34,510 bases of DNA. Source: Deltaproteobacteria bacterium. Its GTDB lineage: Bacteria > Desulfobacterota > DSM-4660 > Desulfatiglandales > HGW-15. Both the position numbers and the translations under genes were made by a program. Every line of letters starts with the position of its first letter. The stretch's first letter is position 1. Below the pieces are notes generated by a model. It ran no database searches. It was given only the letters and a program-made list of their open reading frames with translations, and was not told the DNA's origin. Shown piece after piece: positions 9,770 to 33,765 of the stretch. The stretch covers positions 1 through 34,510 of the forward strand of contig JAFGDF010000099.1 of NCBI GenBank assembly GCA_016932235.1, in the 5' to 3' direction.

Positions 9770-11056
9770 ATGATCAGTGATATCGCGAAGAGCTGTCGGG
9801 AAGCGTCAATCATTACTGCGACGCTGAGCAGTGAGATGAAAAATCTCGCATTGAGAACGATCGCCAAGGCATTAGGGACCAAGGGTGAGGCCATCTTAAG
9901 AGCTAACATGGAGGATCTGAAGAAGGCGCGGGAGGAAGGTCTCAGGGATGTGTTGTATAAAAGGCTGAAATTCGATGAGGAAAAACTCGCCTCTTCCATC
10001 GAAGGTGTCACATCTCTGATCCAGCTTCCAGATCCCGTGGGGATATTGCAGATGGAGACAGAACTTGATGACGGACTCATTCTGAGGCGGTTTAGCTGTC
10101 CCATAGGGGTGCTGGGTATCGTTTTCGAATCGCGGCCGGACGCGCTTGTCCAGATATCGTGCCTGGCCCTTAAAAGCGGTAATACGGTTTTGCTTAAAGG
10201 TGGTGCCGAGGCGTTGAATACCAATCGCGTTCTGTTTGAGATCATTAACGATGCCGCCATTTCCGAGGGTCTGCCCAAAGGATGGATGAGTTTGCTTGAA
10301 ACGCGTGATGAGGTCACGGAGATGCTGTCTCTGCATCATGTCATTGACCTCATAATTCCCAGAGGGTCTAATGAGTTCGTGCAGTATATCATGCGAAACA
10401 CAAAGATCCCTGTTCTGGGACATGCTGATGGAATTTGCCATGTTTATGTGGATTCGAAAGCGGATATGGATATGGCCGCGCAGATCGTATATGATTCGAA
10501 ATGCCAGTATCCCGCCGTATGTAATGCCGTGGAAACACTGCTTTTACACACTGACATAGCAGAGAAATTTCTCCTTTTGATAAAGAGCAGGTTTGATGAT
10601 GCCCATGTTGAGATACGCGGAGATGAGACGGTACAAAGCTATATCAATTGCAAATCGGCCCAACAGTCAGACTGGCAGACAGAATATAATGATCTGATAA
10701 TTTCCATTAAGATCGTCAGGAGTGTGGATGAGGCGATCGCACATATCAATCTCTACGGATCGCATCACACCGATGCAATCGTGACGGAAGATCAGAATAC
10801 CGCCGATAGATTTACAGGTCTTGTTGATTCAGCAAATGTCTTTTTAAACTGTTCAACACGATTTTCAGATGGTTTTCGATACGGGCTTGGTGCAGAAGTC
10901 GGAATAAGCACCAATAAGATTCACGCAAGAGGTCCGGTGGGTCTGGAAGGATTGACCATCTATAAATGGAGATTGGATGGGAAAGGACACGTCGTGGCGG
11001 ATTATGCCGGCCCTGGTTCCCGGAAATTCAAGCACAGGAAGGTAATAAATGCGTGA
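9770..11056 (+). CDS. proA: Gamma-glutamyl phosphate reductase
   Basis: Second step of proline synthesis: reduces gamma-glutamyl phosphate to glutamate semialdehyde with NADPH. 428 residues, typical length. An aldehyde-dehydrogenase-fold protein with GVLGIVFESRPDALVQI (113-129), LKGGAEALNTN (142-152), DLIIPRGSNEFVQYI (193-207), and the catalytic C251 in YPAVCNAVETLL. The C-terminal end has FSDGFRYGLGAEVGIST and HARGPVGLEGLT. AGGGAGAT precedes the ATG. It overlaps proB by 8 bp, so the two are translationally coupled. Gene order here is proA then proB, the reverse of the E. coli operon. Confidence 0.97.
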   Translation: MISDIAKSCREASIITATLSSEMKNLALRTIAKALGTKGEAILRANMEDLKKAREEGLRDVLYKRLKFDEEKLASSIEGVTSLIQLPDPVGILQMETELDDGLILRRFSCPIGVLGIVFESRPDALVQISCLALKSGNTVLLKGGAEALNTNRVLFEIINDAAISEGLPKGWMSLLETRDEVTEMLSLHHVIDLIIPRGSNEFVQYIMRNTKIPVLGHADGICHVYVDSKADMDMAAQIVYDSKCQYPAVCNAVETLLLHTDIAEKFLLLIKSRFDDAHVEIRGDETVQSYINCKSAQQSDWQTEYNDLIISIKIVRSVDEAIAHINLYGSHHTDAIVTEDQNTADRFTGLVDSANVFLNCSTRFSDGFRYGLGAEVGISTNKIHARGPVGLEGLTIYKWRLDGKGHVVADYAGPGSRKFKHRKVINA

Positions 11057-12176
11057 TTTTACTAATACGAAGCGAATTGTCATTAAGGTAGGCACCAATA
11101 TTCTGTCGGACGGCAATCTGATTGACGTAAACTTTATCGGCCAGATAGCAGAACAGATTTCAAGCCTTGTCAGGAAAGGGAAGCATGTTATTCTCGTAAC
11201 ATCAGGGGCCATCGGCATGGGGGCCAGAAAACTCAGGCTCCAGCCCAAAACCAGCAGCATTAAAAAGCGTCAGGCGTGCGCGGCAGTCGGCCAGGGTTTC
11301 TTGATGCATGAATATCAGGAGGCATTTGACAGATATGACCAAAAAGTAGGTCAGGTGCTGATTACGAACGCCATACTTAATAACCGTAAATACTATGTTA
11401 ACCTTAAGAATTGCGTTGAAACAATGCTTGCAATGGGAGTGTTGCCCATTGTCAATGAAAATGACTGTGTATCCATAGAAGAGATTGACCTGGCTTTCGG
11501 CGACAACGATAAGCTTTCAGCGCTTGTGGCGTCAAAGATTGACGCGGAACTCCTGGTCATACTGACCGATGTGGAGGGCCTTTACGATAAAAATCCACGC
11601 AAGAGCAGAAGCGCGAAAATGATCGAAACAGTGTTTGAGATCACAGAAGAGATTGAGGAAATGGCGGGAAGGGCAGGTTCTTATGTGGGGACCGGCGGTA
11701 TGAAGGCAAAGATAAACGCTATTAAGATCGCTTCCCAGGCAGGATGTAAGGTTATCCTGGCGCATGGACGCGTAAAGAATGTTATAAATGAGATAATCTC
11801 AGGGGAAAAAATAGGGACTTTATTTCTTCCAAAGCGGAGCCTGAGCAACAGGAAACGATGGATTTTAAATACAAAGTCCAATGGGTCTGTTTTCCTTGAT
11901 GACGGTGCGGTTCAGGCGGTTTGTCAGAACAGAAGCCTGCTTCCGGTTGGTATTACAGGAAAGCGTGGAAATTTTAAAAAAGGAGATATTTTGGAGATTT
12001 GCGATCAAACGGGGAGTGTTGTCGGAAAAGGGATTACCGCATTTTCCTCAGGGCAGATAGGTAAAATGTTGTCAAAGCAAAAGGAATCGGTTTTGGAAAG
12101 AAGCGAAGTCGATAAAAAGATACCCATAAAACGGAAGGCAGTGGTACACGCAAATGACCTGGTCCTCATTTCATGA
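11049..12176 (+). CDS. proB: Glutamate 5-kinase with C-terminal PUA domain
   Basis: First step of proline synthesis: phosphorylates glutamate with ATP; normally feedback-inhibited by proline. 375 residues. An amino-acid-kinase fold with VIKVGTNIL (11-19), VTSGAIGMGARKL near 50-62, the substrate loop NENDCVSIEEIDLAFGDNDK near 137-156, and LTDVEGLYDKNP followed by GTGGMKAKI. Residues from about 280 form the PUA domain (VGITGKRGNFKKGDILEI), which is present in full-length bacterial enzymes. Its start lies inside the end of proA (8-bp overlap), preceded by GGAAGGT. No terminator-like hairpin directly follows. Confidence 0.97.
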   Translation: MRDFTNTKRIVIKVGTNILSDGNLIDVNFIGQIAEQISSLVRKGKHVILVTSGAIGMGARKLRLQPKTSSIKKRQACAAVGQGFLMHEYQEAFDRYDQKVGQVLITNAILNNRKYYVNLKNCVETMLAMGVLPIVNENDCVSIEEIDLAFGDNDKLSALVASKIDAELLVILTDVEGLYDKNPRKSRSAKMIETVFEITEEIEEMAGRAGSYVGTGGMKAKINAIKIASQAGCKVILAHGRVKNVINEIISGEKIGTLFLPKRSLSNRKRWILNTKSNGSVFLDDGAVQAVCQNRSLLPVGITGKRGNFKKGDILEICDQTGSVVGKGITAFSSGQIGKMLSKQKESVLERSEVDKKIPIKRKAVVHANDLVLIS

Positions 12177-12380
12177 CAATATCCATTTCTATTACCATTA
12201 AAGCGCTTCCCTTTTTTGTGCTCTTTTCTATTGCGTTATCAGACTTCATAAAAAGAGCACGTTCAGTTAGTTATACTTCTTTGTCAATTTATAAATTATT
12301 GGGGTATGTCTCTTCTTTACCATATAATACGAAAATGGGTTTTAATATACGCCGGTATGAGATTCAGCGTTATGTCTAAA

Positions 12381-12598
12381 GATCGCGGTATGGGGTGCCC
12401 TTTTTACGGTCGAACTCGTTCCTGGCTTGTTTATCGCACAAAGCCTTACGAGGCGGGCGGAAGGTCATCTAAGTTGTTACAAAGAAGGATCAAGGCGGAA
12501 TGACCGGAGAAGGCGCCCGCCCGCCTGGCATGCAACTTACGCTATTATTTTGCTACCCGGGGTCTTCGCCGTTAAAAAGGGCTCTCCATACCGCAATC
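12381..12598. mobile_element. 218-bp MITE-like element with imperfect terminal inverted repeats
   Basis: The left arm, 12381-12414 (gatcgcggtatgg...cgaa), and the right arm, 12565-12598 read in reverse complement (gattgcggtatgg...), share CGGTATGG, GCCCTTTTT and ACGG-CGAA with two mismatches and two one-base gaps over the core ~30 bases. A second nested pair inside, AGGCGGGCGG near 12451 and its complement near 12523, and a third (GGTCAT/ATGACC) mean the element could fold into one branched structure. No transposase or convincing ORF lies inside. No clear target-site duplication was found. It fills most of the 444-bp gap 12177-12620 between proB and the LysR gene. Confidence 0.6.
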
Positions 12599-12620
12599 CT
12601 GCGACCACAGGGTGTTATTT

Positions 12621-28309: not shown

Positions 28310-29075
28310 GGCAAACAGGCTCATTAAAGGCGCATGGGCAACCCTTGGTGTCCCATTCGATTTTCCAATGGTTGAGGAAAGGACCAATGGCTTAATTGAT
28401 GTGGAAGCGTTGATCATAATAACATTGCTTGTGATTGGAGAAGACCGACTGATTACCGATTTGCCTGCATGGCTCAATCGTTTTGAACATCTCATCAATT
28501 TCCAGAAATTGAAGACTATTTTCAGGGGACTCTCGAAAGAGCACTCAGATCTCATCATTGCAAATTTGAACAATGCACCTTTTTACAGCACGCCAAGGCC
28601 ATTCATGAATATTTTTGAATTGAGGGCGCAAGAGGCCAGGCCTGCTGATAAAAGTATCGAATGGCGGATAGAAAAAATCAATACAATTGAGAATGTGGCG
28701 GAAAAATCCCTTTTCATTAAAAACAGGCTACTTTACGGTACCAGCTTCCGTGCAGACCTGATAACCATAACGCACATTGAGAACATCGGCATGAAAGGAA
28801 CGGATCTGGCAACATTGCTGTGTGCCAATAATTCAACCATATCGCGAATAGTAAATGATTTAAAAGCATGCGGTTTTCTTGATAAAGACAAGGAGCGGGT
28901 CAAACCTTTCGAAACCTATCCTGGTTTGTTCATATCCAATCAGAGTGTATGGAATCTCTGCGAATTGATGAATGCGATACAATTTTTGTTTAAAGAGTTA
29001 AAAAATGGTGTACTCGAAAATATAAACTTCAAGAACGATTCATTTGGGAAAATGATCTCAAGTACGGTTCATTGA
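28281..29075 (+). CDS. Hypothetical winged-helix protein, partner of the nucleotidyltransferase remnant
   Basis: 264 residues from the ATG at 28281. Residues near 175-205 (TDLATLLCANNSTISRIVNDLKACGFL) form a clear MarR/IclR-like helix-turn-helix. The N-terminal 150 residues are helical with no recognised domain. It overlaps the tail of the nucleotidyltransferase remnant by 29 bp. Antitoxins of nucleotidyltransferase toxin systems often carry a winged helix, so a toxin/antitoxin-like pair whose toxin has decayed is possible (inference). No Shine-Dalgarno is obvious, consistent with coupling. The frame is intact to a normal stop. Confidence 0.6.
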   Translation: MKSIKRLKNEANRLIKGAWATLGVPFDFPMVEERTNGLIDVEALIIITLLVIGEDRLITDLPAWLNRFEHLINFQKLKTIFRGLSKEHSDLIIANLNNAPFYSTPRPFMNIFELRAQEARPADKSIEWRIEKINTIENVAEKSLFIKNRLLYGTSFRADLITITHIENIGMKGTDLATLLCANNSTISRIVNDLKACGFLDKDKERVKPFETYPGLFISNQSVWNLCELMNAIQFLFKELKNGVLENINFKNDSFGKMISSTVH

Positions 29076-29207
29076 ATCATTAAATATCCCTTCCAATCAT
29101 ACCATTTATTTCAAACTGATTAAAATAATGTGCCGCTTTGACCTTATCTGTCACACCCGCCTGTTACAATGCCTTGAAATCTAAAATGAAAGGGGGGGTG
29201 ATTTTCT

Positions 29208-29530
29208 ATGGAAGAAGCAATAGGGATTTACCTGGAACAGGCAAAGATCGGCCTGAAGCAGTCCTATAAGAACCTGGCCCTGTTTCCTCTCCTCTCCACC
29301 TATTCTCTGGAACTGGATTATCTCCTGCTGCCGGTTTTGAATCGCATGAATCTGTTGGGTTGGGAACGGACTGCCGTATGGAATCTAAAAGGATTACCGG
29401 TTTTGCCTTGGTGCTGGATGATAAAATTATACATTTGTCTGTTTTTTCACGCTCAGATGACAAAAAACAGAATAGTAGCAGATCCAGGATGGGAAGGTAT
29501 ACACAGCGAAGAAGAAATAGGGTATATTGA
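29208..29530 (+). pseudogene. ARPP-1-like gene with an out-of-frame internal deletion
   Basis: After a strong ribosome binding site (AAAGGGGGGGTG), the frame from 29208 encodes YLEQAKIGLKQSYKNLALF then PLLSTYSLELDYLLL, which resembles the N-terminus of ARG-and-rhodanese-phosphatase-associated protein domain 1 (ARPP-1). At about 29332 the homology moves to another frame: GFESHESVGLGTD, then ITGFALVLDDKIIHLSVFS and SSRSRMGRYTQRRRNRVY to a stop at 29530, fitting the family's C-terminus. About 150-200 central residues are gone. ARPP-1 genes often neighbour ADP-ribosylglycohydrolase genes, and a fragment of one lies at 30159. Confidence 0.5.
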
Positions 29531-29602
29531 TGTGAGTCAGAGAAACGGAGAAGCGGTGAATGGGAGAGGGGAGGAAGAAACGGAAAATAGGAGAATCGGT
29601 GA

Positions 29603-29983
29603 ATGGGAGAAAGGATAAACAGCTACAAGGAATTAAGAGTATTTGAAAACGCGATTAATGCGGCAATGAAGATTTTTGAACTGACCAGGACTTTTCCGCA
29701 GGAAGAGAAATACTCAATGGTAGATCAGATGCGTCGTTCATCCCGTTCAGTATGTTCCAACATTGGAGAAGCATGGAGAAAGAGGAGATATAAGGCAGCC
29801 TTTATTGCCAAGCTGAGTGATGCGGAAAGCGAGTCATGTGAAACCCAGGTATGGATTGAATTTGCAAGAAGATGTGAATATTTGGAAGACCAAATTTGTG
29901 ATGAAATGGATAAAGAGTATGATCAGATTATAGGCCAAATTGTAAGAATGATAAATGAGGCGGATAAATGGCTGATAAAGTGA
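29603..29983 (+). CDS. Four-helix-bundle protein of the S23 / 23S rRNA intervening-sequence family
   Basis: 126 residues. INSYKELRVFENAINAAMKI opens the first helix, followed by TRTFPQEEKYSMVDQMRRSS, SVCSNIGEAWRKRRY, and LSDAESESCETQVWIEFAR, all hallmark helices of the family (TIGR02436 type). Members occur in 23S rRNA intervening sequences and as free genes; the related Avd protein works with reverse transcriptase in diversity-generating retroelements. The function of free copies is unknown. No reverse transcriptase or variable repeat is nearby. It is flanked on both sides by G/A-rich repeats and has a shortened sister copy at 30500. GGAGAA lies before the ATG, inside the repeat. Confidence 0.9.
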   Translation: MGERINSYKELRVFENAINAAMKIFELTRTFPQEEKYSMVDQMRRSSRSVCSNIGEAWRKRRYKAAFIAKLSDAESESCETQVWIEFARRCEYLEDQICDEMDKEYDQIIGQIVRMINEADKWLIK

Positions 29984-29985
29984 CC

Positions 29986-30099
29986 GAAACGGGGAACCGG
30001 CGAAGCGGAGACGGGGAGTGACAGAAACGGAGAAATGGCGAAGCGGAGATGGGGAGTGACAGAAACGGAGAAATGGCGAAGCGGAGATGGGGTGAATAA
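29986..30099 (+). repeat. Three tandem copies of a 38-bp unit
   Basis: Units at 29986-30023, 30024-30061 and 30062-30099 start gaaacggagaaatggcgaag (first copy gaaacggggaaccggcgaag) and end with tgaca in copies 1-2. Copies 2 and 3 differ only at the last few bases. The array begins 3 bases after the four-helix-bundle stop codon. Confidence 0.9.
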
Positions 30100-30158
30100 A
30101 AGCTGTGACTCCATTGGTTTCACCGATTCCCCGGTGCCCATACTCCCCCATTCCCGCA

Positions 30159-30479
30159 GTACTTGGTGAGGGGTGGATAGGAGAAGAATCGGTCGCTTTA
30201 TCCCTTTATTGTTTTCTTAAATATCCAGACAGCTATGAAAAAGTGGTTATCAGAGGGGCTAACACCAATGGAGACTCTGATTCCATTGCCTGTATTGGTG
30301 GATCGATCAGCGGCGCTTATCTTGGCATAGATGCAATCCCTTATAAGTGGTTAAAAGAGATTGAAAAATCAGAGTACCTTGGTGATCTCGCAGTGCGATT
30401 AGCGGAGAAGAGGGAATCGATGAAAGGGGAGACAAGGAGCCGGAGCGTCGGGGAAACGGAGAAACGGAGAGAAAGATAG
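30159..30479 (+). pseudogene. C-terminal fragment of an ADP-ribosylglycohydrolase
   Basis: From 30159 the frame reads VLGEGWIGEESVALSLYCFL, then NGDSDSIACIGGSISGAYLG and IPYKWLKEIE, a clear match to the C-terminal third of ADP-ribosylglycohydrolases, including the metal-binding D-x-D-[ST] in GDSDS. Full-length proteins have 250-350 residues; the N-terminal two thirds, including the other metal-binding aspartates, are missing and replaced by repeat sequence. The 3' end also runs into G/A-rich repeat. An open frame extends left to a GTG at 30105 through repeat DNA, which is not a real start. The fragment and the ARPP-1 remnant are probably parts of one broken ADP-ribose operon. Confidence 0.72.
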
Positions 30480-30499
30480 AAAAGATGGAGAACGGCTGA

Positions 30500-30610
30500 A
30501 TGGTGGAAAGAATAAACAGTTACAAAGAATTAAGAATATTTGAATATGATTAAATAATAGCGCAGATAGTTACAATGATCAATGAGGCAGACAAATGGCT
30601 GATAAAGTGA
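30500..30610 (+). pseudogene. Miniature four-helix-bundle gene copy with internal deletion
   Basis: The first 15 codons (MVERINSYKELRIFE) match the start of the intact gene at 29603 (MGERINSYKELRVFE). The last 16 codons (AQIVTMINEADKWLIK and stop) match its end, and the bases after the stop continue to match (tgaccgaagcggagaaccgg). About 270 bp between are missing. In the intact copy GATTA occurs at both deletion borders (29653-29657 and 29926-29930), so loss by recombination at this 5-bp match is likely. The frame stops after 17 codons. Confidence 0.8.
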
Positions 30611-30616
30611 CCGAAG

Positions 30617-30681
30617 CGGAGAACCGGTGCCCATACTCCCCGGTTCTCCGTTTCACCGATTCCCCGGTGCCCATACTCCCC
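30617..30681. repeat. C/T-rich repeat block with an 11-bp hairpin
   Basis: CGGAGAACCGG (30617-30627) pairs perfectly with CCGGTTCTCCG (30640-30650). CCGGTGCCCATACTCCCC recurs at 30624 and 30664 (40-bp period); a third copy is at 30131. Confidence 0.8.
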
Positions 30682-30719
30682 GATTCCCCGATTCTCCCAC
30701 TCTCCGTTTCTGCATTTAT

Positions 30720-30878
30720 ATGCGGATGAAGGATGAAGCGCGACATAGATACGCTTCCGGGCAAAAAGTCCGTGATCTTATTAAGGAATTGCGTAAAAAT
30801 ACCGAAGATTACGACAAGCCTTCGCCGGATACATCAGAGCAAGCTGACATGATAACCTCCTGGGTGGAGGAAGAATAA
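30720..30878 (+). CDS. Short ORF, possibly the tail of a lost gene
   Basis: 52 codons (MRMKDEARHRYASGQKVRDL..., ending ITSWVEEE), charged and helical, no recognised family. It begins directly where the C/T-rich repeat ends and has no ribosome binding site. Codon use looks coding, so it may be the C-terminal end of the gene interrupted by the repeat unit. Confidence 0.3.
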   Translation: MRMKDEARHRYASGQKVRDLIKELRKNTEDYDKPSPDTSEQADMITSWVEEE

Positions 30879-31208
30879 AGCTATATAAAATCATGAAACG
30901 ATTTTATTTTGACTTTTAAGTATAGTTTTATTAATTATAGTTTAATTAAAACAATTAATTATAATCCATCTAAGTGTTCTATGAAAATATTCTGATATTC
31001 ATTTATCAACCTACTATTAGGGGGTGAATATGGACAAGCACAAAGAGACCCTGTTTCTCAGATAGAGAGCGGGGTTTTTAATTGGCTCGTATGTGGTTTT
31101 AAATAAACCAAATAGATTGAAAATATATGAATTAGAACCATAACACTCATTCAAGGTTTCAAAATTGTTAATATTGATAATAAGAACAGTGAAAATAGCT
31201 TGGAAAAA
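30879..31208. other. AT-rich gap before the radC operon
   Basis: Very AT-rich from 30900 to 31015. It has a TTGACT at 30909-30914 and the decamer ATTAATTATA twice (30930-30939 and 30954-30963, 24 bp apart), which could be a promoter with direct-repeat operators. A leader-like ORF and hairpin follow at 31030-31080. No gene seen. Confidence 0.4.
31048..31080 (+). terminator. Hairpin with T-run in the radC leader
   Basis: ACCCTGTTTCTC and GAGAGCGGGGT can pair (with two G-U pairs and one bulge) and are followed by TTTTT, giving a terminator-like form about 130 bases before radC. It overlaps the end of an 11-residue ORF (31030-31065, MDKHKETLFLR) preceded by GGGGGTG. Confidence 0.45.
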
Positions 31209-31961
31209 ATGATATCAAAAAAAAATAAGTACAGTGGAATAGCAACATGGTCAAAATATGATAGACCAAGAGAAAAACTGTTTCGTTTAGGTGCCAAGCA
31301 CCTTTCAGATTCCGAACTGCTGGCTGTGATTCTCAGGATAGGTGTCAAAGGAAAAAGCGCTATTGATTTGGCACAAGAGATCACGACGCGTTTTAAAACA
31401 TGGCGGAATATGGTTGATGTGGACATCGCCGAATGGAAGCAAATCAAAGGATTAGGCATCACCAAGATATCGCAAATATTGGCCGCCATCGAAATCGGGC
31501 AAAGGATTCAATCCGAGAAGTCAAAACAATATGTATTGATCAAAGATGCCAAACAATTGGCAGAAATCTTTTCCCCTCGACTGCGGGATGAAAAGAAAGA
31601 ATCTTTTTGGGTCGTACTACTCGACGGGAAAAATAAGATCAAGGATGAAATGGAATTGGCAAAGGGAACCGTCAATGAAGTCAGCACCTATGTTCGCGAA
31701 GTTTTTATGACAGCCTTGCGAGGCGCAGCAGCAAGTTTCGCCATCATCCATAACCATCCCTCTGGGAATCCTGAGCCAAGCCAAAATGATATACAATTGA
31801 CCCGCGAACTGGTATGCGCGGGAAAAACCCTGAAAATAAAAGTCCAGGACCATTTGATTATTGGTGATGACAGATACTACAGCTTTGCAGAACACGGCCA
31901 AATCAAGGATCTTGAAAAGCAATGGGAGAATTATATCCACATGAAGTCTGATGGAGGCTGA
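31209..31961 (+). CDS. radC: RadC-like JAB-domain protein
   Basis: 250 residues from the ATG at 31209 (a TTG at 31200 is also possible). The N-terminal part has RPREKLFRLGAKHLSDSELL, then a helix-hairpin-helix region (WKQIKGLGITKISQILAA, about 76-93), then the JAB/MPN metalloprotease-like domain with HNHPSGNPEPSQND carrying the zinc ligands H181, H183 and D194. RadC was named for a repair phenotype that was later disproved; its role is unknown, and it is frequent in genomic islands and near defence genes. Here it is the first gene of an operon: the next ATG lies 1 base after its stop, so translation is coupled. Confidence 0.92.
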   Translation: MISKKNKYSGIATWSKYDRPREKLFRLGAKHLSDSELLAVILRIGVKGKSAIDLAQEITTRFKTWRNMVDVDIAEWKQIKGLGITKISQILAAIEIGQRIQSEKSKQYVLIKDAKQLAEIFSPRLRDEKKESFWVVLLDGKNKIKDEMELAKGTVNEVSTYVREVFMTALRGAAASFAIIHNHPSGNPEPSQNDIQLTRELVCAGKTLKIKVQDHLIIGDDRYYSFAEHGQIKDLEKQWENYIHMKSDGG

Positions 31962-31962
31962 T

Positions 31963-33765
31963 ATGGCGGGCAATCACAATCCCTTTGTAGCAAAATTTTT
32001 AACGATCTACAGCCAAAGCGACTTCAGTACCGCCGGCACACGGGGCTACGATCCGCAAACCTATGTCGATACAAAGCTCGACCTGAAACTGACACCGCGC
32101 ATTTACTCGCCAGAAACACGCTTGGTCGTGCTGACGGGCAATGCGGGTGATGGAAAAACAGCCTATATTCAGCGACTGGAGTCCTTAGCCAGAGAGCACA
32201 GGGGAACATTTTCCGCGCAAACAGATAATGGCTGCACCTACAAGATGGATGGGATCGCCTATCAGACGCTATATGACGGCAGTCAGGATTTCGAAGGCGC
32301 CAAGAACGACCAAATACTAAAAGAATTCTTCTCTGACCTGGAGGGAGCTATGGAACCCAAAGGGGCATTTACAAAAATCATCGCCATAAATGAAGGGAAA
32401 CTGAGGGATTTCATTCTTAATAAGAGAGAATATTCCTGGCTGGGAAGGCAGGTGCATCACTATTTTGAATCGGACAGTTTTACACCTCATAAATCCTTGA
32501 TCTTCATTAATCTCAATCTCCGATCCGTGGTGAGTGACAATGAAAACGAGCCGTCCATATTTGATCTCATCCTGGATAGATTTTTAGATAAAGAAGGTTC
32601 CATGGGATTTTGGAACGCCTGTGCTCCTGAGAACTGCTCTTGCGCAAATCGGTGCTATATTCGCTACAATATTGAGACGCTTCGCCATCCCGAGTTAGGG
32701 CCAATCGTTAGACATCGTTTAAAACAGCTTTTTTATGCAGTCCTTTTCAGGAAAATAAAGCATATCACCGTTCGCGATATTCGATCCTTTCTCTCATACA
32801 TTCTCATAAATAAATATTCATGCCACCAGATCCAGGCAGACCTTGATAGCGGCTCCTCAGTTATAGATCGGTTTTATTACAACGCCGTATTTCCTGACGA
32901 CGAAAAAGACCGCCTTGCCCATACGATGTGCGACCTGGATGTCTCCCTCACATCCAACCCGAAGCTGGACAACTTCATTCATTTTCACGGGCCTGATGAT
33001 GATTTATGCTTACAGCTTTTAATAGCCGGGCACGAGGAAAGACAGGATCAGCCATATCTTAGGAAGCTTTTTGAAAGCATGCCCCAGGGGACGGATGACA
33101 ATGATCCTATCCACCGTGACAACGCCCACCGCTATCATAGGTCACTAAGGAAAAAACTTTTCTTTGAGAGTGCAGAAGAGAAGATGAAGGCGGCGGGATT
33201 CCCTATATGGAAAGATTTTCTCCCCTATAAAAAATTTGACCGTTTTTCCCAAGTCGTTCATGCTCGGGAAGATCAACATTTCGAGCTACGAAATAACCTA
33301 ACGCTGGCGATTAGCAAATCGGAACGCATTTACAATGAAATTATCGGCAGTGAAAATCTATGCCTCCGCTCTACATCAACAACCAAGGCAAACACGAAAG
33401 GGTTTTATAGCTTCCCTGCATCGGACTTCAAGGTAATTGTCAAAGACATCGGATTTCAGGAAGAGTTTTTGGAATACACGCCAAATGCTCTTTATTACCG
33501 GTATGTCGGCACTAGCGCTAATATAAAGAACCCTGTTGAACTCGAAATTCCCATTGATCTATTTGAAGTTCTCTGTCGCATCAGAGAAGGGTATATCCCG
33601 GCAGCCAACGAGGTGAGGACGTTTTTTCTGAATCTCGAAATGTTCAAACGAAGGATCGCGGCAAAACGGCCCGACAAAATATTTCTCACCGATGACGATT
33701 CGAGCTTATTTGAAATCAAGAAAGATCCTGCAAATAATCTGATCATGACCAAGGTAGGTGGATGA
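31963..33765 (+). CDS. P-loop ATPase of unassigned family, coupled to radC
   Basis: 600 residues from the ATG at 31963, chosen for the GGAGG five bases upstream; an ATG at 31951 lies inside radC. Walker A: GNAGDGKT at 59-66. A hydrophobic strand followed by NEG (KIIAINEGKLRDF, about 140-152) may be the Walker B region. A Cys cluster, CAPENCSCANRC (about 222-233), could bind zinc. The GxxGDGK[ST] plus IN.G.L pattern recalls DptF of phosphorothioation-dependent restriction, but overall similarity cannot be claimed from reading. The rest is helical with no recognised nuclease or helicase motif. It overlaps the next gene by 4 bp (ATGA). Defence-type function is an inference. Confidence 0.75.
   Translation: MAGNHNPFVAKFLTIYSQSDFSTAGTRGYDPQTYVDTKLDLKLTPRIYSPETRLVVLTGNAGDGKTAYIQRLESLAREHRGTFSAQTDNGCTYKMDGIAYQTLYDGSQDFEGAKNDQILKEFFSDLEGAMEPKGAFTKIIAINEGKLRDFILNKREYSWLGRQVHHYFESDSFTPHKSLIFINLNLRSVVSDNENEPSIFDLILDRFLDKEGSMGFWNACAPENCSCANRCYIRYNIETLRHPELGPIVRHRLKQLFYAVLFRKIKHITVRDIRSFLSYILINKYSCHQIQADLDSGSSVIDRFYYNAVFPDDEKDRLAHTMCDLDVSLTSNPKLDNFIHFHGPDDDLCLQLLIAGHEERQDQPYLRKLFESMPQGTDDNDPIHRDNAHRYHRSLRKKLFFESAEEKMKAAGFPIWKDFLPYKKFDRFSQVVHAREDQHFELRNNLTLAISKSERIYNEIIGSENLCLRSTSTTKANTKGFYSFPASDFKVIVKDIGFQEEFLEYTPNALYYRYVGTSANIKNPVELEIPIDLFEVLCRIREGYIPAANEVRTFFLNLEMFKRRIAAKRPDKIFLTDDDSSLFEIKKDPANNLIMTKVGG

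Follow-up and report, generated by a model that had tools for sequence, protein, structure and literature searches.

Can a short stretch of DNA whose only protein is a four-helix bundle behave as a mobile element, and what would move it? The question is raised by a locus in a window of 34,510 nucleotides (the whole stretch of DNA analysed here, from a Deltaproteobacteria bacterium, contig JAFGDF010000099.1), in which an intact S23/IVP-family gene lies close to a shortened derivative, each flanked by G/A-rich repeat arrays. An earlier note, made from the letters of this DNA, had read the pair as the full and miniature forms of a mobile unit and had suggested a helper reverse transcriptase elsewhere in the genome. 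The mobile full/miniature relation gains support from the multiple copies found in relatives, copy-specific arms, motifs that follow the protein lineage, gene-free copies and differing occupancy of sites; the helper reverse transcriptase does not.

Anatomy of the full copy and the miniature

The two copies and the gene fragment between them comprise the following features.

29536..29615, + strand: 5' G/A-rich array of degenerate units of ~8 bp, the final unit overlapping the start codon (ATGGGAGA)
29603..29983, + strand: intact IVP/S23 four-helix-bundle gene, 126 aa (PF05635, TIGR02436, AlphaFold model)
29979..30092, + strand: 38-bp tandem array, G/A-rich and oriented as the 5' array (TRF: 3.0 copies, 93% matches)
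~30110..30172, + strand: C/T-rich inverted array ending the full copy (repeat comparison)
30156..30341, + strand: C-terminal fragment of an ADP-ribosylglycohydrolase between both copies (PF03747, E 2.7e-18, profile 224-285/287)
30424..30500, + strand: 5' G/A-rich array of the miniature (repeat comparison)
30500..30610, + strand: 111-bp internally deleted remnant of a related IVP gene (repeat families D3 and D4; alignment)
30628..30716, + strand: C/T-rich inverted array ending the miniature (repeat comparison, TRF)

That an intact gene and a 111-bp derivative share ends and arrays, as the earlier note had described, is confirmed for 29536-30172 and 30424-30716. One common segment spans 29590-29647 in the full copy and 30487-30544 in the miniature (84% identity), and a second spans 29915-30000 and 30542-30627 (83% identity). 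In translation the remnant corresponds to ~15 codons from the start and ~17 codons from the end of an IVP gene. Since both gene ends are kept at 83-84%, the miniature is an internal deletion of a related copy and not a recent deletion of this very full copy. An internally deleted copy sharing both ends with a full one was seen in the window only.

The repeats themselves are related on both sides of the gene. The 38-bp tandem array, also recognised in the earlier note and recovered by TRF, matches the 5' array of the full copy directly with a score of 30.0. The far-side repeats that the note had seen as inverted correspond to the two C/T arrays, which match each other directly at 36.5. Within the miniature, the two arms pair with a score of 17.0 (best shuffle 14.5), and a score of 20.5 is reached between the 5' arm of the full copy and the C/T array that ends the miniature (14.5 for the best of 200 shuffles). 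Pairing is weak between the nearest arms of the full copy, at 11.5 against 13.5 for the best of 200 shuffles, and in the cross-genome arm measure described below this copy scores 10.5, the 95th percentile of control genes being 11.8. Because its nearest arms pair weakly, the full copy alone is no proof of inverted arms; the inverted-arm plan rests on the miniature and the relatives, not on the window's full copy. Across the whole window, arms scoring at least 15 turned up at just two further places (9681 and 12361-12381), and at none in three shuffled windows. When folded as RNA, the miniature (30420-30716) has an MFE of -91.1; its z against 60 shuffles is -4.1, and -2.0 on the opposite strand. 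For the full unit, z against 25 shuffles is -2.2, and -2.3 on the opposite strand.

The neighbours of the two copies are protein genes, and a search of 29000-31200 up to E 0.1 returned no rRNA family and, among other RNA families, only a miRNA match below its gathering score. The rest of the ADP-ribosylglycohydrolase gene was not seen near 30156-30341. Upstream of the full unit lies a decayed, frame-shifted gene piece (29208-29530) that has no match in Pfam, for which reason an initial identification as an ARPP-1 gene was dropped. Elsewhere in the window, the intergenic stretch 12350-12620, after a gene at 11049-12176 that is presumably proB-like, is taken up by an inverted repeat that is long, imperfect and non-periodic and has a GC-rich inner part; this repeat is perhaps another mobile remnant. 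A large protein encoded at 31951-33765, with weak AAA/STAND-type NTPase similarity below cut-offs, follows a gene at 31200-31961 that we take to be RadC-like.

The IVP protein

The window IVP matches PF05635 with an E of 3.7e-29 (101.5 bits, curated cut-off 33.8) and TIGR02436 with a score of 100.6 (cut-off 24), and its AlphaFold model has a pLDDT of 95.9. In a Foldseek search, the structures closest to this model were 2GSC and 2RLD, followed by Avd (4DWL). The match to 2gsc_E (E 5.9e-06, TMt 0.93) identifies a four-helix-bundle fold, and the match to Avd is more distant (E 0.065, TMq 0.77, identity 8%), with the bAvd profile PF22296 scoring below its cut-off. Structures of the S23/IVP protein have been solved, and we know of no established function for it; XCC0516 we take to be the crystallised Xanthomonas IVP. 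The 2RLD entry is itself titled a protein with unknown function, and the family has been crystallised with five chains in 2GSC and 2RLD (title cited in PMC10053308).

No catalytic motif, known nuclease or polymerase was recognised in the protein, and the IVP gene is the only gene recognised in the unit by the ORF list and the Pfam and TIGRFAM profiles, with no transposase beside it, in agreement with the earlier note's view that a four-helix bundle is all that the unit encodes. Residues I24, Q42, R44, S49, N53, E56, R61, F67, L71 and E80 are invariant in an alignment of 16 sequences. For the four of six IVP pairs with a computable dS (the other two gave none), dN/dS is about 0.02-0.11, three of the four dS values being near saturation; dN lies well below dS, which argues that the protein is kept by selection. 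Among the matches listed (120 of 7999), 103 of 120 homologues begin with MGE, and because the array unit at the start codon encodes MGE, these homologues seem to have an array at the gene start as well. By eye, some homologues also carry N- or C-terminal extensions resembling translated array. A viral origin of the element was considered and dropped, as a scan of viral contigs gave three stretches that fitted a pattern and no confirmed IVP relative.

Copy number and inverted arms in relatives

A scan of genome contigs recovered 11 relative loci, in most of which, where both sides are available, an array and its reverse complement can be seen by eye around the gene. Going by record names, these loci presumably span Bacteroidota, Acidobacteriota, Calditrichota, Nitrospirota, WOR-3 and one planctomycete. 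All 11 genomes are multi-copy, with 4-17 IVP family matches each and at least one over the cut-off in every genome. The 104 matches correspond to 91 places (13 weak or partial matches left out), 90 of them with a locus and 85 with at least 120 bp on both sides. For these 85 copies, an arm score was defined as the local alignment of the 250 bp upstream with the reverse complement of the 250 bp downstream, and 150 ORFs of the same loci, cleared of IVP genes, served as controls.

Of the 85 copies, 67 score above the 95th percentile of the controls, 55 above their 99th percentile and 38 above the highest control. The 18 copies at or below the 95th percentile speak against the mobile reading. A Bacteroidota group with control-level scores of 9.0-9.5 (G001:C183, G003:C111 and G009:C8) may represent a settled cellular version. 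The arms are specific to their copy: when all 85 downstream arms are compared, the one belonging to the copy itself ranks first in 46 cases and within the top 5% in 70, and motifs differ among IVP copies within one genome. A periodic tract occurs in a flank of 75 of 85 copies, compared with 17 of 138 random stretches of the same loci, and its period is 7 in 45 and 8 in 17 of the periodic copies. Further IVP genes behave similarly, with 8 of 9 scoreable genes (10 genes from 8 genomes, 200-bp flanks) above 11.8, and five of eight cyanobacterial plasmid copies, drawn from 8 of 27 matching plasmid records, score at least 16.

Several individual loci depart from or add to this plan. On an Oscillatoria nigro-viridis plasmid (L107), long G/A-rich arrays flank the IVP gene, both of them oriented alike and not inverted. 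In Pseudanabaena galeata plasmid pPg_04 (L109, 2059-2875), an IVP gene with an arm score of 8.5 stands directly after cas1-cas2; a figure legend in PMC10910872 names IVP among new associations of CRISPR adaptation modules. Acidobacterial copies (L037, L044, L048, L049 and L053) have in common, by eye, an 'atcaccctcaa...gaggaggg'-like box before the start codon, possibly a hairpin that hides the ribosome-binding site.

The motif follows the protein lineage

Motif and protein were compared in 81 copies (80 plus the window), using pairs from different genomes at different sites. Motif similarity rises with protein identity (Mantel r 0.196, a value reached by 0 of 1000 within-genome permutations). 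A motif is common (cosine >0.3) to five of the six pairs with at least 70% identity, which share genomes and are not independent, to 18% of the 22 pairs at 60-70%, and to ~1% of pairs below 50%; one pair joins a Nitrospirota and a WOR-3 genome. The window's cosines with its relatives are low (0.01-0.18 among the pairs listed) because its arrays are 8-bp and more degenerate, and the window therefore adds little to this comparison.

The same link can be followed within the family of the acidobacterial genome G005. Here the exact 16-mer AGTACTGAGTACTGAG occurs in 12 of 60 genomes (its reversed control pattern in two of these 12), and six of the 60 hold an IVP at least 60% identical to the cognate protein. 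The 16-mer is present in five of the six genomes with the cognate IVP, two of which hold just 1 and 3 motif matches, compared with seven of the 54 others (Fisher p 7.8e-4). Two genomes count against the mobile reading, G022 and G054, with 53 and 66 matches of the 16-mer and no cognate IVP at E 1e-20; both do have other IVP genes. Among the places listed, 18 of 18 two-strand clusters of one motif (within 110 bp) are motif-first, in a tally made by eye to which one genome, G054, contributed 14 clusters.

Hairpins without the gene

Arms of this kind also occur without an IVP gene. Slices of G005 totalling 1.2 Mb were scanned for inverted arms scoring at least 17, which yielded 695 scanning windows after removal of N runs; a shuffled 300 kb gave 1. 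These hits form 252 clusters, nine of which hold an IVP gene. The analysis covered the 30 clusters with periodic arms (34 less four N runs), five with an IVP gene and 25 without; among the 222 non-periodic clusters outside it there will be ordinary terminators and palindromes. A G005 IVP arm is matched at a score of at least 16 by 18 of the 25 gene-free hairpins, and the arm polarity agrees in 16 of these 18. The same 25 hairpins give 10 matches to IVP arms of the sister genome G004, and 0-4 to those of nine other genomes. Seven match no G005 IVP arm, which weighs against the mobile reading. The earlier note had held that repeats equally common away from four-helix-bundle genes would argue against its proposal; gene-free arrays are indeed common in this one family, but most of them carry the motifs of the genome's own IVP genes.

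In the sampled parts of three other genomes, gene-free periodic hairpins are rare: G003 (265 kb) and G008 (400 kb) have one each and G010 (81 kb) has none, and no IVP arm matches either of the two found. Gene-free spread is thus strong in the acidobacterial family of G005 and present in the window, but it is not a general feature of the genomes sampled. The 25 gene-free G005 hairpins and the 600 bp to either side of them yielded no IVP remnant, and the derivation of a miniature from a full copy is therefore not visible in G005, unlike in the window.

These counts bear on a reversed order of events, in which gene-free hairpins came first and the IVP gene entered some of their loops as cargo. 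The excess of gene-free over IVP-bearing periodic hairpins in G005 (25 to 5), and the fact that 0 of 25 shows a gene remnant, would suit such an order. However, gene-free copies are scarce in three other genomes whose IVP genes do have arms, and the window miniature derives from a full copy, as it retains both ends of the IVP gene. We consider cargo origin very unlikely.

Occupancy of sites in relatives

For one gene pair in the G005 family, the first gene was matched in 50 of 60 genomes and 30 loci were returned, G005 included. An IVP gene follows the first gene in four of the 30 loci (G005, G004, G058 and G013), a further 20 show the two neighbour genes without an IVP, and in six the second gene was not found, several of these lying at contig ends. 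Several IVP-free gaps of this gene pair hold, by eye, short-period inverted hairpins. Four other G005 IVP sites likewise have relatives without an IVP gene at the same place, as follows, and the other relatives at these sites aligned on one side only.

Site 1: G058, gap of 47 bp; G039, gap of ~190 bp with a hairpin of another motif; G004, gap of ~190 bp with other repeats, the compared gene having an IVP on its opposite side in this genome
Site 2: G058, 118 bp with a hairpin of another motif; G039, ~160 bp with repeats that pair less clearly
Site 3: G004, 83 bp with a hairpin of another motif
Site 4: G004, 944 bp with a hairpin of another motif and further sequence

The differing content of the compared sites argues that slots turn over. 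Movement itself was not observed, and at the compared G005 sites no fixed insertion junction was readable; nor could a target duplication be defined, because these sites mostly hold other hairpins and not clean empty sites.

That the same slot holds different hairpins in relatives could also be explained by local origin, in which the arrays are slippage-prone repeats or intergenic hairpins (terminators, RNA stability elements) arising in place, and IVP genes tolerate or prefer them. This explanation draws further on the change in arm length between orthologous copies and on the position of 9 of 25 gene-free hairpins between long ORFs that converge (4 of 25 fall inside a long open frame in this same crude test). 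It accounts poorly for a motif that tracks the IVP lineage across genomes and sites, and for same-motif hairpins that recur at many sites with fixed polarity; moreover, a gene inserting into an array would leave direct arms, not inverted ones. We judge local origin to be unlikely.

A proposed mechanism and its possible helpers

We regard it as probable that the unit is a mobile giant-hairpin element, with the four-helix bundle as its only protein and with non-autonomous derivatives that are moved in trans. Its plan would place the IVP gene between an array of degenerate 7-8 bp units and the reverse complement of that array. The IVP protein would cause movement by binding the arms, most likely recognising, in hairpin DNA or RNA, the motif that belongs to its lineage, and this recognition would let the unit be copied or inserted elsewhere through a DNA or RNA intermediate. 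The chemistry of cutting, copying and insertion could come from the host or from an activity that escapes recognition. Copies that have arms and lack the gene, such as the window miniature, could then be moved in trans and spread as small hairpins.

The helper proposed in the earlier note, a reverse transcriptase elsewhere, would move the unit via an RNA copy, with IVP acting like Avd; such a helper is quite unlikely on present evidence. The Avd-type fold (4DWL), the PF22296 match, though below its cut-off, and the presence of RVT_1 in 8 of 11 genomes are consistent with such a helper. Yet RVT_1 was not found in the other three genomes, incomplete MAGs with 10, 12 and 4 IVP matches, and G005, with 17 IVP matches, has a single partial reverse transcriptase match. 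Reverse transcriptases lie close only to three weak, Avd-like IVP matches in G002, on the same contigs (C250, C23 and C646), and these are probably Avd genes of diversity-generating retroelements. By eye, no reverse transcriptase was noticed in the ORF list of the window.

Alternatively, a Y1/REP-type single-strand transposase could move the hairpins in trans, as in RAYT/REPIN systems, leaving IVP as a passenger or repressor. PF01797 is widespread, occurring in 12 of 13 genomes, with 15 matches in G005 and 13 in G004. Against a Y1 helper, the motif tracks the IVP lineage, and the arms are degenerate arrays, not one palindrome of 20-40 bp (the REP size given in PMC3733652). Neither Y1_Tnp nor RVT_1 was found in G009, which has 10 IVP matches; for both helpers, absence is weak evidence because the genomes are incomplete MAGs. 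We hold a Y1 helper to be improbable, and favour the element moved through its own four-helix bundle.

A broader view can be put forward tentatively, at somewhat less than an even chance: IVP elements could be mobile DNA that spans phyla, with a pentameric bundle that reads a 7-8 bp lineage code in the hairpin arms and mobilises gene-free hairpins in trans, and with 23S rRNA intervening sequences and some heptamer repeats as its products. In this view, since both 3' ends of the unit bear one and the same repeat, much as telomeres do, the arms may even grow by repeated copying of a short template. If the mobile reading is true, the element could account for a protein family and for some repeats that have both been hard to explain, and a mobile element without recognisable transposase or polymerase would widen the known ways in which DNA moves. 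The lineage-specific link between protein and repeat makes the function of IVP and the origins of intervening sequences and heptamer repeats testable.

Comparison with known systems

A structural counterpart outside the family is Avd of diversity-generating retroelements, which has a similar fold (4DWL) and distant sequence similarity. The unit differs in that no reverse transcriptase is seen beside its gene and its protein scores below the Avd cut-offs. Insertion sequences and MITEs likewise exist as full and internally deleted forms with common ends; here, by contrast, there is no recognised transposase or fixed-sequence terminal repeat.

Heptamer arrays between genes are also known from other bacteria, with GGGAATC in Xanthomonas and GGGGA(T/C)T in Nostoc (PMC4692102), and TAACTGA in Beggiatoaceae, where the sets are nearly all direct and not inverted (PMC4679880). 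The words S23 and four helix are absent from the text of both papers as consulted, and among open-licence PubMed Central papers, as far as their searchable text goes, none was found that links IVP genes to such arrays. In an Arthrospira strain, four-helix-bundle genes are listed among the strain-unique genes, two entries having best hits in Chloroflexi (PMC8700078), as would fit acquisition from another source.

The 23S rRNA intervening sequences of Coxiella and Leptospira likewise hold an IVP gene in the loop between complementary ends. The Coxiella sequence, as described in PMC4990558, has a 28-bp stem, and the S23 gene in its loop is preceded by two or three tandem GACAGAT heptamers; it is presented there as a selfish element, and earlier ideas of an origin by transposition are cited. 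In the view of the authors of that paper, the protein is probably not produced in vivo and the RNA is the more important of the two, which stands against the mobile reading. The origin of these intervening sequences and of intergenic heptamer repeats is treated as an open question in the relevant passages of PMC4990558 and PMC4692102. In contrast to the intervening sequences, the window unit lies outside rRNA, its relatives are multi-copy, the arms are arrays with one motif per lineage, and gene-free copies exist.

REP/REPIN-RAYT systems differ from the unit in having a Y1 protein, where IVP is a four-helix bundle, and the unit's arms are arrays of 7-8 bp. The two are alike in their organisation, in which a lineage-specific inverted repeat is scattered without a gene and accompanied by a related copy that bears one.
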